Virus record (IMG/VR): IMGVR_UViG_3300025102_000292 | Coordinates: 1-23,865 of that record | Strand: one strand, 5' to 3' | Length of the DNA: 23,865 nt | Origin: a virus | In this document: one piece after another, positions 2,568-11,878 of the stretch | How the letters are laid out: every line of letters starts with the position of its first letter | Position numbering within the stretch: position 1 is the first letter of the stretch | Position numbers and translations under genes: made by a program | Notes under the pieces: model-generated | The model's database searches: none | Seen by the model: the letters and a program-made list of their open reading frames with translations, nothing else | What the model was told of the DNA's origin: nothing

Positions 2568-2750
2568 ATGACATATCCAACAAATCCTATTTACAAGTTC
2601 ACTAAAAATTCTCTTACAAATGAGATAGAAGCAGTAAAAATAACTGTTAATGGTATTGAATCATTTATTCCTTTAGATGAAGCAAACACCGACTACCAAG
2701 AGTACCTTGAATGGGTAGCAGAGGGAAATACAGCCGAAGCTGCTGATTAA
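2568..2750 (+). CDS. Small protein downstream of fibre genes, possible fibre-assembly partner
   Basis: A 60-residue acidic protein. Its C-terminal part, IPLDEANTDYQEYLEWVAEG, is a pattern that recurs in short proteins encoded beside phage tail fibres in many tailed phages. It has no membrane segment. It lies four bases after the fibre gene, so it is probably translated with it. The last four bases overlap the end of a small minus-strand gene. A role as fibre chaperone or fibre-associated factor is inferred from position and motif only. Confidence 0.6.
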   Translation: MTYPTNPIYKFTKNSLTNEIEAVKITVNGIESFIPLDEANTDYQEYLEWVAEGNTAEAAD

Positions 2751-2878
2751 TTAACCTTTTCCTGCATTTGTCTTGTCATTATCCCCATAGTGACGTAGAG
2801 AGGGGATAGACCTATAATTAGCAGTAATGTAGCGAATGTCATAACTGACATAGCTCTAATAATTGCAAATTTTATCAT
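2747..2878 (-). CDS. 43-residue single-pass membrane microprotein
   Basis: Reading the minus strand from ATG at 2878 to TAA at 2747 gives 43 residues: MIKFAIIRAMSVMTFATLLL, then IIGLSPLYVTMGIMTRQMQEKVN. Residues about 8-34 form one hydrophobic helix with a short charged C-terminus. The frame fits the gap between the plus-strand neighbours almost exactly: it overlaps the downstream stop of one by four bases and shares the CATG start region of the other. The protein looks like a genuine membrane peptide rather than a chance frame, and no plus-strand gene fills the gap. No recognisable ribosome binding site was seen. The function is unknown. Confidence 0.5.
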   Translation of the reverse strand: MIKFAIIRAMSVMTFATLLLIIGLSPLYVTMGIMTRQMQEKVN

Positions 2879-3101
2879 GTTTCAAAAAATTGCTAATGTT
2901 TTGAGTATTGTCTCATTCATAATGGTAACTTCTGTTATTGGTGGAGGATACTTTGGATATAAATATGTAACATCAGAACAGGTAAAGGCAAAATTAATGA
3001 ATCAAATACTTGGCGAGGTAAAAGGGCTGTTACCTAATGTATTAGATAAAGGTTTACCAAAAACAACTGGCATATCTATACCAACACAACCAAAAAATTA
3101 A
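2877..3101 (+). CDS. Small membrane protein of cyanophage type, unknown function
   Basis: A 74-residue protein with an N-terminal membrane segment at about residues 5-30 (IANVLSIVSFIMVTSVIGGG), then YKYVTSEQVKAKLMNQI and a Pro-rich tail. From memory, similar short proteins occur in marine cyanophages, but no function is known to me. The start overlaps head-to-head with the minus-strand microprotein. The TAA stop is followed at once by an in-frame TTG that begins the next protein, so the two may be translationally linked. A role at the envelope is inferred from the membrane helix. Confidence 0.65.
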   Translation: MFQKIANVLSIVSFIMVTSVIGGGYFGYKYVTSEQVKAKLMNQILGEVKGLLPNVLDKGLPKTTGISIPTQPKN

Positions 3102-3728
3102 TTGGAAATACCAGAGATAAGTATTCCAGAAATACATATTCCTGAGGTTCATATACCTTATACTTTTTTACCTAACTATGAACATTCAAATGTAGAAGTT
3201 ATAGGTTGTAATTATTATCATCGAGACACAAAAAATACAGGCAATAGAAATCTATTATTAGATGATCCAAACGGAGTAAGTAGTAACTGTCCGTACCCAA
3301 GTTTTTACCCATTGAACTATGTACCAGATCAATTAATTATTGTTGAAGAGGCTGCACCAATAAATAAAGAACCTGATAAATTACCAGAAGGAAAACAACC
3401 ACAAACACAGATTCCAAAAGAAGAAAAAAAAGAAGATGACTATAAACCTTGTCCACCTAAAAATGCAGTATTTAGGCAGGGCGATTTTAAAAATGAACTT
3501 AGGCTTGAGAGACTGTTAAAATATGAACGTGATATTGATGGTTCATGTAATGCGGTCTGGGAAAAAGTACCTTTCATCGACCAATATATACCTAGTGCTT
3601 CCGTGGTTGTCTCTACTGCTCTTATTGCATCTGTGGCTGCGACTACTCCTATTATTTTAAATTTAGTAAAACCAATCGTTAAAAATTTAATTAAAAAATT
3701 ATCAAAAAAGAAAAAAAATTCTAATTAG
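3102..3728 (+). CDS. C-tail-anchored protein with IPE repeats, unknown function
   Basis: A 208-residue protein. It begins with a short repeat of Ile-Pro units (EIPEISIPEIHIPEVHIP). It has four Cys (about 36, 63, 117, 149), a Pro/Lys/Glu-rich linker (90-120), one hydrophobic helix at about 166-190, and a strongly basic tail (KKLSKKKKNSN). It contains no internal Met, so the only sensible start is the TTG at 3102, directly after and in frame with the upstream TAA; readthrough is the alternative. It ends in a shared palindrome with the minus-strand gene. The layout suggests a membrane-anchored protein with an exposed N-terminal domain. From memory, related proteins exist in cyanophages, with no known role. 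Confidence 0.65.
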   Translation: MEIPEISIPEIHIPEVHIPYTFLPNYEHSNVEVIGCNYYHRDTKNTGNRNLLLDDPNGVSSNCPYPSFYPLNYVPDQLIIVEEAAPINKEPDKLPEGKQPQTQIPKEEKKEDDYKPCPPKNAVFRQGDFKNELRLERLLKYERDIDGSCNAVWEKVPFIDQYIPSASVVVSTALIASVAATTPIILNLVKPIVKNLIKKLSKKKKNSN

Positions 3729-4299
3729 TCTCTATTTTGTGTGTATGTGGTATAACTTGATTTGGTGGTACTGTTACTTTTATCCCTTCACAAATCTGTG
3801 CGTATTTGCCTACGAAGGTCACTCCTAGGTTTGCTTGCTCTCCGCAGACCTTCAAACGAAACATTGCAAGCTCAAGCATCTGTTTCTGGTATAACAATTC
3901 TTGATTCTTTATATTTACCTCTGTAGCTTTCAAACATAAATCAGGAGCTTTACCTAAAGGAATAGTGATCTGTGCTGAAATTCCATAATTTAAGTTGTAA
4001 TTATCTTTCTCGAACCTTGGAGTTTCTTGAACGTATTTAATTTGGCCTGTATCTTCATCGTAAATGTTTTGTTTAGTGACTGTTTCTATTGGTCTATTAA
4101 ATGACCAAGCATCTGTCACATAAGGAGTAATCGTGAGACTTGGTGAACTACAAACAATTCCCTGTGACATACGAAACTGAGGTGTAGATTGAGGTGCAAT
4201 CATTGTCGCATTATTGTTTACTGTACCCTGTGCATTTGAGCTAGGACTTGCAACAGTTGTATTAGCAAAAACCCTTACAGGGCAAAGGATTACAAGAAT
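3721..4299 (-). CDS. Secreted protein of minus-strand cassette (start unresolved)
   Basis: Last gene of the minus-strand cassette. After the Sec-like hydrophobic stretch LWSVILVILCPVRVFA comes NTTVASPSSNAQGTVNNNA, then ITPYVTDAWSF, NYGISAQITIPLG, and a C-terminal helix with four conserved-looking Cys. From memory, cyanophages encode a family with the same order (a SSNAQGTV motif, ITPY, NFGISAxIxIPL, a C-terminal Cys pair). The frame is open up to 4437, but that extension lies inside the upstream gene and reads as a shadow. No ATG, GTG or TTG sits near the signal sequence. An ATT codon at 4299, overlapping the upstream TAA, is the nearest candidate. Function unknown; export to periplasm or outer membrane is inferred. 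Confidence 0.62.
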   Translation of the reverse strand: MLVILCPVRVFANTTVASPSSNAQGTVNNNATMIAPQSTPQFRMSQGIVCSSPSLTITPYVTDAWSFNRPIETVTKQNIYDEDTGQIKYVQETPRFEKDNYNLNYGISAQITIPLGKAPDLCLKATEVNIKNQELLYQKQMLELAMFRLKVCGEQANLGVTFVGKYAQICEGIKVTVPPNQVIPHTHKIETN

Positions 4300-4736
4300 T
4301 ACTGACCAAAGGTAGTTTCTACTGTGGTTGTTGTTGTGGTATTTATAACTCGATCTATTTTTGTTATAGTGTCGATTCCGTTTCCAATAACTGTTTCCAT
4401 TAAAGAAAATGGTTGACCAGAATTTACTATTTTCCATCTAGGCACTCCCTCAAGCGTTGGGCTTGTATAAGAAAAATTAATTCCGTTAACTGTTTGTGTA
4501 GCCTCTGCTGTAGGAATTGAATTGATATAGCCATTAACATCTGCACTTTCTATATTTGTACCTGAGACACTTAAAGAATATCCTGTCCGATATTGATAAC
4601 TGGTTATGCTCTCGGTTATTACACTTTGAGAAGTGCTGTTTGTTGAAGAACTTCCTGTACGAAATGTTGGTACTACTGGGTTTGCAAGGATTTTGACAGG
4701 AAATAATATTATTAATAGCAGCCAAAACCTAGTCAA
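4299..4736 (-). CDS. Secreted protein of minus-strand cassette, TTG start
   Basis: A 145-residue protein starting at a TTG that overlaps the end of the upstream gene by eight bases. It has a clear Sec signal peptide (MTRFWLLLIILFPVKILA, cleavage before NPVV). The mature part is rich in Ser, Thr and Asn. It shares pieces with the upstream gene product: GYSLSVSGTNI against TYSISGNNI, and SGQPFSLMETV against SGSAFSLTEAI. The two are probably ancient paralogs. A second minus-strand frame at 4534-4725 is a shadow. The cassette position argues for an envelope or extracellular role together with its partners. Function unknown. Confidence 0.68.
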   Translation of the reverse strand: MTRFWLLLIILFPVKILANPVVPTFRTGSSSTNSTSQSVITESITSYQYRTGYSLSVSGTNIESADVNGYINSIPTAEATQTVNGINFSYTSPTLEGVPRWKIVNSGQPFSLMETVIGNGIDTITKIDRVINTTTTTTVETTFGQ

Positions 4737-5247
4737 TTTGGATTGTTACTGTAGTTGACCCCACGCAGCTTGAACCTGATCCAAATGCACCACTACAAGT
4801 ATGGACTCCTGATGATAGAGAAGTCATAGCACCTGATCCAAGAGTACCTCCACTACCTACAGTTGTTTGTCCTGATAAATGAGGTAATGTTGCTATGCCT
4901 GATGATGGAGTGATTGCAGAAGGTGTTGCATCGCCTATGTTTATAGCTTCTGTTAAAGAAAATGCAGATCCGCTAGTGGTTACACTTTTATCAGTCTGTA
5001 TTAAAGCAGGTACACCATCAGTTAAACTGCCTAAATTTAATCCACCAATTTGACCAGCAGTAGTACTGCCACCAGAAGTAACAGAGGGGGTAATATTGTT
5101 ACCTGATATTGAATAAGTCGTGCCTAATTTATTAGTCACAGAGTATGGCATATCAACAGTAATTTGTGCAGATGTCGTGAATTTTTGAGTTATATCAGCG
5201 TAGGCTGGTGCTGATAACAAAAATAGAAATGGAAGAAGTTTTTTCAT
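4729..5247 (-). CDS. Secreted protein with Sec signal peptide, cyanophage type
   Basis: A 172-residue protein with a textbook signal peptide, MKKLLPFLFLLSAPAYA, cleavage expected before DITQ. The mature part is Ser/Thr/Gly-rich and likely beta-stranded, with SAQITVDMPYSVTNKLG near the N-terminus and two Cys near the end (HTCSGAFGSGSSCVG) that could form a disulfide after export. It overlaps the preceding membrane-protein gene by four bases and the next gene by eight, so the cassette is translated as one unit. From memory, marine cyanophages carry proteins of this type. They have no known function. Confidence 0.75.
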   Translation of the reverse strand: MKKLLPFLFLLSAPAYADITQKFTTSAQITVDMPYSVTNKLGTTYSISGNNITPSVTSGGSTTAGQIGGLNLGSLTDGVPALIQTDKSVTTSGSAFSLTEAINIGDATPSAITPSSGIATLPHLSGQTTVGSGGTLGSGAMTSLSSGVHTCSGAFGSGSSCVGSTTVTIQID

Positions 5248-5687
5248 GTGTCTAATTTTCCGTTGTTCTTTACGTTTTTTCCAGTAATCGGATCGACTCT
5301 GATTACATCAGGTTTACTTGTAATTAATTCTATCGGTTGCCTTATTACTATAGTTTGTACACCACCATTGGTGTTACCAATATTACCGTTCTCTCCTTCT
5401 TTCTTTTTCTTTTTTGCACCTGTAGCAGCACCAACAGAAACACCCCAACCAGCAAGAATATTTCCTAATAAACCTGCGGCAAAAGTGCTGTCTACTCTAG
5501 GCTGGTCTGGAATATCAAGACCAAATAATCTATTAGGTAGCTTTATATATCCAAGAGACAGAACTATTAAACACCAAGCAAGGATAGCTCCTTGTGCAGT
5601 AGTGCTTACTAAGAACATTATCTTTTCTTGATAGTCAGGTTTATCATCATCTAATTGCTTTTTATTTTCGATTGTCTTATCTGCCAT
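5244..5687 (-). CDS. Membrane protein heading the minus-strand cassette
   Basis: A 147-residue protein with two hydrophobic segments: about 23-50 (IMFLVSTTAQGAILAWCLIV) and about 68-92 (TFAAGLLGNILAGWGVSVGA). A Lys-rich stretch (KKKKKEGENG) and a polar C-terminal domain ending in PITGKNVKNNGKLDT follow. The N-terminus is charged and cytoplasmic by the positive-inside rule. It is the first gene of a four-gene minus-strand unit and overlaps the secreted-protein gene by four bases. A small pore, holin-like protein or membrane anchor for the secreted partners are all possible. The plus-strand frame over the same bases is a shadow. Confidence 0.68.
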   Translation of the reverse strand: MADKTIENKKQLDDDKPDYQEKIMFLVSTTAQGAILAWCLIVLSLGYIKLPNRLFGLDIPDQPRVDSTFAAGLLGNILAGWGVSVGAATGAKKKKKEGENGNIGNTNGGVQTIVIRQPIELITSKPDVIRVDPITGKNVKNNGKLDT

Positions 5688-5733: not shown

Positions 5734-5895
5734 ATGCCAGAGGTTTATGGTGCATTAATAGGGGCAGCAGCCACCGCTTTTGTTATGGTGTTATCCAACA
5801 TGAGTAACCGCAGAGAAAAAACAATAATAGATATATATACCAGACTCAACAAGCTATCACAGGCGGTTAGTAGGCTGGAAGGCAAGATTCAATAG
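5734..5895 (+). CDS. 53-residue holin- or spanin-like membrane protein
   Basis: Reading from ATG at 5734 to TAG at 5895 gives MPEVYGALIGAAATAFVMVL, then SNMSNRREKTIIDIYTRLNK and LSQAVSRLEGKIQ. There is one N-terminal membrane helix (about 4-22), followed by an amphipathic helix with heptad spacing. One helix plus a short charged tail resembles small class II holins and XhlA-like membrane proteins. The position just before the terminase genes matches the T7 lysis region (gp17.5 before gp18 and gp19). The holin role is an inference; an anchor or scaffold peptide is the alternative. Confidence 0.55.
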   Translation: MPEVYGALIGAAATAFVMVLSNMSNRREKTIIDIYTRLNKLSQAVSRLEGKIQ

Positions 5896-5903
5896 CGTAT
5901 GCT

Positions 5904-6089
5904 ATGTTTGAAAAAAAACTAATTATGTACAAAATACTAAAGCCTATTTTATTACGATTCCTTTCTACGACAGGATGTAAACGATTAATCTTAGATTTAT
6001 TGCGGTCAATATGTAAGCAGACCTCCAATACATTGGACGACAGAGCAGTTGATTTACTAGAACAAAAATTATTTCCTAAAATGAACTAA
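5904..6089 (+). CDS. Small hypothetical protein in lysis/terminase region
   Basis: Up to 61 residues from ATG at 5904, with a second possible ATG at 5925 (MYKILKPILLRFLSTTG). The N-terminal half is hydrophobic and basic, perhaps membrane-associated. The C-terminal half (CKQTSNTLDDRAVDLLEQKL) is an acidic helix containing the LDDRAV pattern, which I associate with small phage membrane or holin-like proteins, but I cannot name a family. The stop overlaps the next start (TAATG), so the two are coupled. Confidence 0.55.
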   Translation: MFEKKLIMYKILKPILLRFLSTTGCKRLILDLLRSICKQTSNTLDDRAVDLLEQKLFPKMN

Positions 6090-6423: not shown

Positions 6424-6645
6424 ATGGATAAGAATTTTAAAATCCTAGAAAAGTTACACCTACTTCTAGCTAAAGAACTGACAGATAAAATCACAAGTGG
6501 CGAAGCAAAGGCTGGTGATCTAAACGTAGCGAGACAATTTCTAAAAGATAATGGTGTTGAGTGCTTACCTGTAGAGAAAAACCCTATGCAAGAACTAATG
6601 GAGAACTTACCAGACCTAGATGCTGTACCTGTAGCTGATTTATAA
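6424..6645 (+). CDS. Terminase small subunit (T7 gp18-like)
   Basis: A 73-residue protein directly upstream of the large terminase. The central part (LTDKITSGEAKAGDLNVARQ, then FLKDNGVE) is the pattern of short terminase small subunits in T7-like marine phages: a helix, GEAxxxDLxVARxFLKDN, then an acidic C-terminus (LMENLPDLDAVPVADL). T7 gp18 is 89 residues, so the size fits. The small subunit recognises concatemer DNA and regulates the large subunit. Its TAA stop is followed immediately by the in-frame TTG start of the large subunit, which points to tight translational coupling. Confidence 0.75.
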   Translation: MDKNFKILEKLHLLLAKELTDKITSGEAKAGDLNVARQFLKDNGVECLPVEKNPMQELMENLPDLDAVPVADL

Positions 6646-8807: not shown

Positions 8808-8818
8808 GAACCACAATG
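8808..8818 (+). promoter_or_regulatory. GAACCACAATG leader, copy 1
   Basis: GAACCACA stands immediately before the ArdC-like ATG, without a Shine-Dalgarno sequence. The same block precedes the genes at 9873, 10315 and, in changed form, 10886 and 11905. Confidence 0.6.
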
Positions 8819-9778
8819 ACACTTTCAGCAACTAGACAATCTAAGAAACAACAGTATGACCCAAACAAAGGGTATGAAGAACTAGCTCAGTCTTTAATAG
8901 AACTAATGGAGAAAGGTGTTAATCCTTTCCGTAGGTCTTGGACTAAGGAAGCTCAACATACTAACTTTGTAACTGGGGAGCAGTACCAAAACGGAAACTT
9001 AATATGCTTAGAGATTGCCAGACTAACAAGGGGCTATAAGTCACCTTATTGGATGGGATTCGGACAAGCTAAGAAATTCGGATTAAAGATGATTAAAGGA
9101 TCTAAGGGTTCTATTATCTTGAGACCTGTAGCAATCAAGAAAGAATTACTAGACAATTCTGGTAAGCCTGTAAAAGATGCTCTAGGCAATCCCGAATTTA
9201 CAGCGTTTACTTTATTTACACCTTGTAGAGTTTTTAATCTTGACTGTTTTGAAAAGACAGGAAAGGTAGAAAACAGACTTCAAGAACTTAATAAGGATGT
9301 TGCAGTTATGCAGAATCCTATAAGTGCTAATGAAGATAAAGCAATTAAGCAATTAAGGCAGTATATGAAAACTCACAATATTGATTTTTCAGAGACAGGT
9401 AATGAAGCTTATTATTCTCCTACTTTTGACTCAATAACTGTACCTAACAGAGAAAGATTTAATTCTAACTCTTTACATTGTTCAGTTGTTGCTCATGAGT
9501 CTGTCCATTCATCAGGGGCAGATAAAAAAGGTAGGCTTTCTAGAGTTGGTATTACTAGCAAGAAAGCAACCTTTGGAAGTGAGCTATACGCAACTGAAGA
9601 ATTAATTGCAGAATTAGGAGCCTTTCTAATTTGTAATGAATTAGAGATAGATTCTAATAATGATGTTCACGCTTCATATTTAGACGGATGGATTAAGAGA
9701 TTAAGGAAAGAACCTAAGCACCTTCTAACTGTTATAGGTCATGCTGTAAAAGCTAAGAATCTAATACTAGGTTCTTAG
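8816..9778 (+). CDS. ArdC-like antirestriction protein with zincin metallopeptidase domain
   Basis: A 320-residue protein. Residues about 20-145 match the ArdC N-terminal ssDNA-binding domain (DUF1738): NPFRRSWT, then a GEQYQNGNLICLE segment and FTLFTPCRVFNLDC. Residues about 165-320 form a zincin-like metallopeptidase domain with the full HExxH motif (HESVH, 227-231) and a downstream acidic helix YATEELIAELGAF (about 258-270) that can supply the third zinc ligand. ArdC proteins of plasmids bind ssDNA and protect incoming DNA from restriction. As first gene after the genome end it occupies the position of T7 gene 0.3, also antirestriction. The catalytic motif is intact; the protease substrate is unknown. 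Confidence 0.82.
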   Translation: MTLSATRQSKKQQYDPNKGYEELAQSLIELMEKGVNPFRRSWTKEAQHTNFVTGEQYQNGNLICLEIARLTRGYKSPYWMGFGQAKKFGLKMIKGSKGSIILRPVAIKKELLDNSGKPVKDALGNPEFTAFTLFTPCRVFNLDCFEKTGKVENRLQELNKDVAVMQNPISANEDKAIKQLRQYMKTHNIDFSETGNEAYYSPTFDSITVPNRERFNSNSLHCSVVAHESVHSSGADKKGRLSRVGITSKKATFGSELYATEELIAELGAFLICNELEIDSNNDVHASYLDGWIKRLRKEPKHLLTVIGHAVKAKNLILGS

Positions 9779-11529: not shown

Positions 11530-11654
11530 ATCAATCAAAATTATACGAGTGGTTACTCGATAACGATTGCCCTTTTGAATGGGAAACAGTTGACAGTAAA
11601 ATGACTGCAACATCTTGTACTCTTGTATTTACCGATCAGGAGGATAACGATTGA
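11526..11654 (+). CDS. Small acidic hypothetical protein (42 residues)
   Basis: ATG at 11526 lies seven bases after GGGAGG and overlaps the upstream TGA. The product (MNQSKLYEWLLDNDCPFEWE, TVDSKMTATSCTLVFTDQED, ND) is acidic, with a helix then a likely beta hairpin. Its last codons contain AGGAGG (11638-11643), which serves the TTG start of the next gene. The good ribosome binding site makes this a credible gene. Function unknown. Confidence 0.58.
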   Translation: MNQSKLYEWLLDNDCPFEWETVDSKMTATSCTLVFTDQEDND

Positions 11655-11878
11655 AGTGTACTAAATGCGGAAGCCTAGAGAATCAAGTAAACAATACTAG
11701 AACTAGGCTATCTACTAGAGGTCACAACATAGACAGCAAAGCAAGTTCTATTCCTTTTACTTGGAGGAGTAGGACTTGCTTATCTTGTGGCCATAAATAT
11801 TCAACCTATGAATTAAGAACTGTTGACTATGCAACAGATGGATTTCTAAAAATGTTAGATGATCTTATTCATAACTAA
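11651..11878 (+). CDS. NrdR-like zinc-ribbon protein
   Basis: A 75-residue protein starting at TTG 11651 (overlapping the upstream TGA), seven bases after a perfect AGGAGG, which fixes the start. It carries one zinc ribbon: MKCTKCGSLEN ... WRSRTCLSCGHKYSTYE, with four Cys as two CxxC pairs. This closely resembles the N-terminal zinc ribbon of the bacterial repressor NrdR, which binds operators of ribonucleotide reductase genes. The ATP-cone domain of NrdR is absent. It may bind DNA in the host or act as an early transcription modulator. The family link is good; the target is an inference. Confidence 0.65.
   Translation: MKCTKCGSLENQVNNTRTRLSTRGHNIDSKASSIPFTWRSRTCLSCGHKYSTYELRTVDYATDGFLKMLDDLIHN

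Follow-up and report, generated by a model that had tools for sequence, protein, structure and literature searches.

A conserved unit of six genes, here called A to F, is encoded in the window (the whole stretch of DNA analysed, i.e. the 23,865-nt virus record IMGVR_UViG_3300025102_000292) and is larger than the four genes first noted there. This unit may encode a late complex spanning the cyanobacterial envelope, which would disrupt or remodel the outer envelope of the host and would be spanin-like in its action without belonging to the spanin family; a probability of roughly 40% is given to this reading. The record is probably a fragment of a longer genome and belongs to an MPP-C-like, T7-like cyanophage. 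Its closest complete relative is Prochlorococcus phage P-SCSP2, whose clade, MPP-C, was described previously (PMC9860041).

Gene content and layout of the cassette

The genes of the cassette and their neighbours are the following:

2877..3101, plus strand: gene F (74 aa), one N-terminal helix; phrog_568; T4-GC 414
3102..3728, plus strand: gene E (208 aa), convergent with D, with an overlap of 8 nt; phrog_570; T4-GC 234
3721..4437, minus strand: gene D (238 aa), predicted to be exported (VFA|N); phrog_848/1755; T4-GC 235 (= gp165 of Syn9)
4299..4437, minus strand: out-of-frame C/D overlap, in which the 3' end of C encodes the D n-region
4299..4736, minus strand: gene C (145 aa), TTG start, predicted signal peptide (ILA|N); DUF6322, phrog_650; T4-GC 236
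4729..5247, minus strand: gene B (172 aa), predicted signal peptide (AYA|D), all-beta in the model, paralogue of C; phrog_564; T4-GC 237
5244..5687, minus strand: gene A (147 aa), inner-membrane protein with two predicted helices and a basic C-terminal tail; DUF6450, phrog_2714/721; T4-GC 218
5734..5895, plus strand: gene I (53 aa), neighbour, N-terminal helix and coiled-coil-like tail
5904..6089, plus strand: gene J (61 aa), neighbour; phrog_2738
6424-6645: TerS, PF11123 match

As the initial annotation had pointed out, four overlapping genes (3721-5687) run on the minus strand. Indeed, according to the ORF lists, A, B, C and D overlap successively by 4, 8 and 139 nt, and every large gene of the window outside A-D lies on the plus strand. 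Profile matches of A-D were obtained with E-values of 1e-7 to 1e-57, and none of the matched families has an assigned function. These E-values, together with dN/dS or pN/pS values of 0.11-0.18, indicate that the cassette is not due to chance. No paper on DUF6322, DUF6450 or the PHROG numbers was found in the literature collection searched, and a promoter and terminator scan found promoter-like sites to be no more numerous than in shuffled sequences.

Several other features of the window are worth recording. A small minus-strand ORF with a hydrophobic helix (2747-2878) is divergent from F, their start codons overlapping, and an ORF resembling it sits opposite F in MED4-117 (locus L160). An ArdC-type protein (8816-9778), composed of an anti-restriction N-terminal domain and a zincin-like metallopeptidase, is also encoded, as it is in P-SCSP2, and a 75-aa protein with an NrdR-like zinc ribbon (11651-11878) adjoins the integrase gene.

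Co-occurrence and distribution among phages

Viral contigs were retrieved with either D or A as the only bait, and the loci that had sufficient flanking sequence were searched with profiles of all six genes. Of the 32 myovirus-type loci, all contained B, C and E, 31 contained F and 26 had A within 6 kb; the set A-F was complete in all 20 podovirus-type loci; and the 37 loci fetched by A contained B and D in every case and C, E and F in 36. Across loci, B, C and D share a strand, opposite to that of E and F; gene A precedes B in podovirus-type loci and follows F in myovirus-type loci. The proposal that the minus-strand genes form a conserved, co-travelling unit with predicted export, including the region 2747-3728 (genes E and F), is thus borne out: partners were found near the D- or A-fetched loci, and the random, independent occurrence that would speak against such a unit was not seen. 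Gene J goes with the cassette in podoviruses and in the MED4-117 group. Gene I is outside the conserved core.

A tblastn search recovered 409 phage records with the window D and 455 with the P-SSP7 form of D. The records related to D are named as cyanophages, Prochlorococcus or Synechococcus phages, Tiamatvirus (the genus of P-SSP7), or unassigned marine or uncultured viruses, in agreement with the earlier remark that the relatives of these proteins are cyanophage proteins without function. The unit was found in MPP-C podoviruses, in MPP-B podoviruses (in reduced form), in a siphovirus-like group and in most T4-like cyanomyoviruses, among them S-RIM2, S-SM1, P-SSM4, P-SSM2, Syn9 and S-SCSM2R; it is also present in S-TIM5, in S-SKS1, in the MED4-117/MED4-184 group and in the single-cell contig AG-345-A17. 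The reduced set of P-SCSP2 and P-SSP7 consists of A, C, D and an E-like gene, which belongs to phrog_9426; 4/14 E proteins are likewise matched by this family (best E-value 2e-4). The profiles of D, A, B and E gave no match in Syn5, S-PM2, P-SS2, S-CRM01, Ma-LMM01, S-CBS2, T4 or pelagiphage HTVC008M.

This distribution bears on superinfection exclusion or envelope modification, which is the main rival of a lysis-type reading, a rank that it owes to the several phages of the same hosts that are devoid of the set. According to this rival, the exported proteins would cover or obstruct the outer-membrane receptors of infected cells, or make their envelope stiffer, and thereby bar other cyanophages. 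The patchy presence of the cassette (absent from S-PM2, Syn5 and P-SS2) fits a useful but dispensable trait, its presence in unrelated phages of the same hosts and the predicted nature of its products (exported or membrane proteins) are likewise favourable, and TraT, a surface-exclusion lipoprotein, figures among the non-significant Foldseek rows for D (E 1.3). However, known exclusion systems usually consist of one or two small proteins rather than of a six-gene set, and the position in the late operon of P-SSP7 and S-TIP37 is late for exclusion; this explanation is considered somewhat unlikely.

Among genome contigs, only 9 encode D. A bacterial or host origin of D was rejected, most of these contigs appearing to be phage sequences that were grouped with bacterial MAGs or with Prochlorococcus single cells during binning, a judgement based on the cassette carried and on contig size that falls short of proof. 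A 188-kb contig filed under Nonlabens xiamenensis (L256, NZ_RMVE01000006.1) carries a full cyanomyovirus-type cassette, which is probably phage contamination of the assembly.

Relation to a previously described gene cluster

The cassette had been put forward as an undescribed system, which does not hold, since Sullivan et al. 2010 (PMC3037559) already described, in T4-like cyanophages, a cluster of hypothetical proteins 'clustered for functional reasons', comprising T4-GC 218, 219, 234, 235 and 237 with the 'plasmid stability' protein 414. Profiles built from the window genes find the genes that bear GC labels in P-SSM4 and S-SM1, A to F corresponding to GC 218, 237, 236, 235, 234 and 414, respectively; gene F is therefore the window counterpart of GC 414. 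The two arrangements share homologues of all six genes and the convergence of D and E. They differ in that A lies downstream of F in the Sullivan cluster but upstream of B in the window, and in that the former lies beside hsp20 in T4-like cyanophages, whereas the latter lies between the tail-fibre and terminase genes of a T7-like podovirus. Furthermore, the Sullivan cluster includes GC 219 (phrog_605 in P-SSM4), which the window cassette lacks, no match to it having been found among the ten window proteins scanned; the window cassette is consequently regarded as a variant of the Sullivan cluster and not as an identical member. New in the present analysis are the distribution in podoviruses and siphoviruses, the selected out-of-frame C/D overlap, the B-C paralogy and the slot between the tail-fibre and small-terminase genes. 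As regards the database label 'plasmid stability' of phrog_568, it looks unsupported for F, which is a short membrane protein with a single predicted helix.

Selection and the overlap between genes C and D

All six genes are under purifying selection, the lack of which had been named beforehand as an outcome contradicting a functional unit. The median dN/dS against relatives is 0.11 for A, 0.13 for B, 0.18 for E and 0.14 for F, and pN/pS outside the overlap is 0.16 for C and 0.15 for D.

No canonical start codon is present near the signal peptide of D. The sole in-frame start is the ATG at 4437, within C, which gives D an n-region of about 44 residues. The frame offset between C and D is identical in 227/228 loci. 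To test the overlap, 35 representatives with a similarity below 75% were compared over the final 46 codons of C, with synonymous shuffling of the C codons as the null: the D frame is open across the 3' end of C in 30/35 representatives versus 2.4 expected, and a control frame is open in 0 versus 1.7 expected. Within the overlap, substitutions follow C, pN/pS being 0.27 in the C frame and 1.48 in the D frame, so that the n-region of D stays open while its residues are little constrained.

An open D frame upstream of the signal peptide could also mean that programmed frameshifting joins C and D into a single protein. This is compatible with the 30/35 representatives mentioned above and with the frequent lack of a start codon near the D signal peptide. 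However, no conserved slippery site or heptamer was found at the C/D junction, an ATG is present at -139 or at -166 to -178 in nearly all representatives, and in four loci (L035, L081, L055 and L068) the overlap has shrunk to leave a start codon at about -4. A frameshift fusion is therefore improbable and was rejected for want of a slippery site; from this and from the four lineages with a shrunken overlap, D was concluded to be a gene of its own, with a long n-region, and not part of C. In P-SSP7, the annotated start of D cuts off its signal peptide. In MED4-184 (L170), a one-T difference from MED4-117 in a T-run at the D start breaks the upstream D frame, possibly through a sequencing error.

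Predicted protein features and folds

The initial annotation recognised one two-helix membrane protein and three proteins with Sec signal peptides. The hydrophobic cores and small-x-Ala sites agree with this; the one correction concerns D, whose start lies at the ATG at 4437, ahead of a long n-region. Signal peptides were called from a hydrophobic core followed by a small-x-Ala site, and the predicted cleavage sites are AYA|D in B, ILA|N in C and VFA|N in D, where the core spans residues 45-58. The same pattern is found in 226/233 members of the B family and in 226/238 members of the C family. In A, the helix 25-43 is hydrophobic and a second, weaker segment (about 68-91) is the most conserved stretch of the family; a TMHMM note of two helices accompanies its P-SSP7 orthologue, gene 43. 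Gene A is thus predicted to have the at least two membrane helices in a small protein that are expected of a holin. No holin family was matched, however, by its members, which matched only phrog_2714/721/21865, of no known function, and DUF6450.

An hhalign comparison (probability 98%, E 1.5e-13) identifies B and C as paralogues, and C has a conserved C-terminus (..TTxxxF.Q). Four conserved cysteines are found in the mature part of D, which ends in a PHxHxI motif, and four others in the proline-rich N-terminal part of E, which has a C-terminal membrane segment (163-181) with a cationic tail. The conserved cysteines of D and E fit an oxidising compartment. A C-terminal cysteine pair of B (window 4729-4800) occurs in Prochlorococcus-phage forms and is rare elsewhere.

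The structural model of B is all-beta (pLDDT 73, pTM 0.43) and that of D consists of a long beta-hairpin followed by a 40-residue helix (pLDDT 64, pTM 0.32). Fold searches of both against the PDB gave no significant match (lowest E-values: D, 0.08; B, 0.49), and a PDB sequence search gave no match. The top Foldseek rows for D, all non-significant, are FlgH (L ring, E 0.08), CDTb, lysenin and aerolysin, with VIA Z values of at most 4.4, on the helix; these model-based rows are hints that D may be a ring or pore protein. BFVD matches of D with E <0.001 bear no functional names, and the organisms named are cyanophages or uncultured marine phages, several of the proteins being called Gp165. D was also considered as a TolC-type channel or outer membrane efflux protein, which was rejected (PF02321 matched by 2/74 D members, best E 0.15).

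Such features could fit a fibre or appendage on the surface of the infected cell, with B and C as fibre subunits and D as an outer-membrane ring or pore. The paralogy and all-beta character of B and C, the hairpin and long helix modelled for D and its ring- or pore-like top rows (FlgH L ring, CDTb, aerolysin) are in line with this, but the fold matches are non-significant, with low pTM values, and an usher, a chaperone and a secretion ATPase are all absent. An appendage is quite doubtful and is the least supported of the three functions that the initial annotation proposed.

Cassette members gave no match to holin, spanin or peptidoglycan hydrolase families. With regard to spanins in particular, the predicted cleavage sites of B, C and D precede Asp or Asn and not the Cys of a lipobox, and E is devoid of an N-terminal signal; the C-terminal helix of E and the N-terminal helix of F could provide inner-membrane anchoring, but neither protein gave a sequence match.

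Genomic slot and putative lysis neighbours

In the window, the cassette lies between the tail-fibre genes and I, J and TerS. The equivalent region of P-SSP7 (MPP-B) resembles it, as genes 42-45 (E-like, A, C and D) are consecutive between the tail-fibre genes and TerS, but differs in being devoid of B and F, in lying entirely on the plus strand and in having an E that is only distantly related (phrog_9426). Gene 45 (D) of P-SSP7 is followed, ahead of gene 46, by an unannotated J homologue (L271, 9184-9342). S-TIP37 likewise has a plus-strand run after its tail-fibre genes, made up of J, E-like, A, C, D and gp47-like genes in succession, with TerS next. In MPP-A podoviruses, the same slot is occupied by gp47-gp48 in Syn5, gp48 being a J homologue, and in P60 by the lysozyme gene followed by a gp47 homologue (gp38) and gp39. 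Phage T7 has its holin gene 17.5 between the tail-fibre and small-terminase genes and its spanin genes 18.5/18.7 beyond TerS. The cassette therefore shares its slot with the T7 holin and with the P60 lysozyme and gp38, and small membrane proteins are present in both settings; it differs from T7-like lysis genes in having no holin, spanin or lysozyme match and in having three predicted Sec-exported proteins in place of an enzyme or lipoprotein. This podovirus slot points to lysis or envelope work.

In a panel of 24 phage records, which is not a random sample, D and the gp47-like gene occur together in one only (S-TIP37). Gene I, whose anatomy is like that of Syn5 gp47, has weak matches to holin family phrog_1350 (E 0.05) and to phrog_12220 (E 0.07) and is a candidate holin or spanin-like lysis gene. 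Ten unassigned proteins of P-SCSP2, whose MPP-C genome is complete, were tested, and none has a lysozyme or amidase domain. The gene order had also raised Syn5 gp55-gp58 as a divergent E-A-C-D set, which was rejected.

The same position could suggest that the products are virion components, i.e. decoration or appendage proteins on the particle, since the genes come after the tail-fibre genes in the window and in P-SSP7; moreover, Sullivan et al. (PMC3037559) found 18 hypothetical proteins in S-SM1 virions. However, their Sec signal peptides would divert B, C and D from assembly in the cytoplasm, nearby virion proteins but not the cassette genes are flagged in the S-TIM5 record, and the cassette is conserved across three virion morphologies. 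Its conservation across podovirus, siphovirus and myovirus lineages is better explained by a function at the host envelope than by a role in the virion, and the latter is very unlikely.

Proposed function

In the preferred reading, the products of A-F would form one phage-made, envelope-spanning complex, produced late in infection. The inner membrane would house A, E and F, and B and C, the two paralogous beta-proteins, would fill the periplasm or the outer face; D would be an exported protein with disulphide bonds, probably in association with the outer membrane. The complex would breach or remodel the outer layers and let the progeny exit, acting with the small membrane genes I and J and with an endolysin where one is present. 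Complex formation, late timing and outer-membrane action at lysis are what we infer from sequence. This reading is supported by the constant co-occurrence and strand pattern, the predicted export and membrane segments, the slots in P-SSP7 and S-TIP37, the other genes found in this slot in MPP-A podoviruses and T7, the conservation across three phage lineages, the conserved cysteines of D and E, the absence of lysozyme and amidase domains from the P-SCSP2 proteins tested and the finding of D with a gp47-like gene in only one of the 24 records.

Against it, S-PM2, P-SS2, S-CRM01 and several MPP-A phages do without these genes and still lyse their hosts, and gene I, which is weakly gp47-like, accompanies the cassette in the window, so that the two sets are not strictly exclusive. 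The lack of any holin, spanin or hydrolase family match also weighs against it, as does the orientation of the cassette, opposite to the late genes of the window, and its location in T4-like phages, where it lies beside hsp20 or replication genes, outside any lysis slot. The stronger proposal of a cyanophage-specific envelope-breaching machine unrelated to holin-endolysin-spanin modules, in which two exported beta-proteins, paralogous to each other, would combine with membrane anchors and with a ring protein exported to the outer membrane, and common to the podo-, sipho- and myoviruses of marine picocyanobacteria, is considered unlikely.

The set is carried by most marine cyanomyoviruses and many cyanopodoviruses, which are killers of the ocean's main photosynthesisers. 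The link to the lysis slot, the full membership of the set and the true gene starts make a testable envelope system out of hypothetical genes that were listed 16 years ago.
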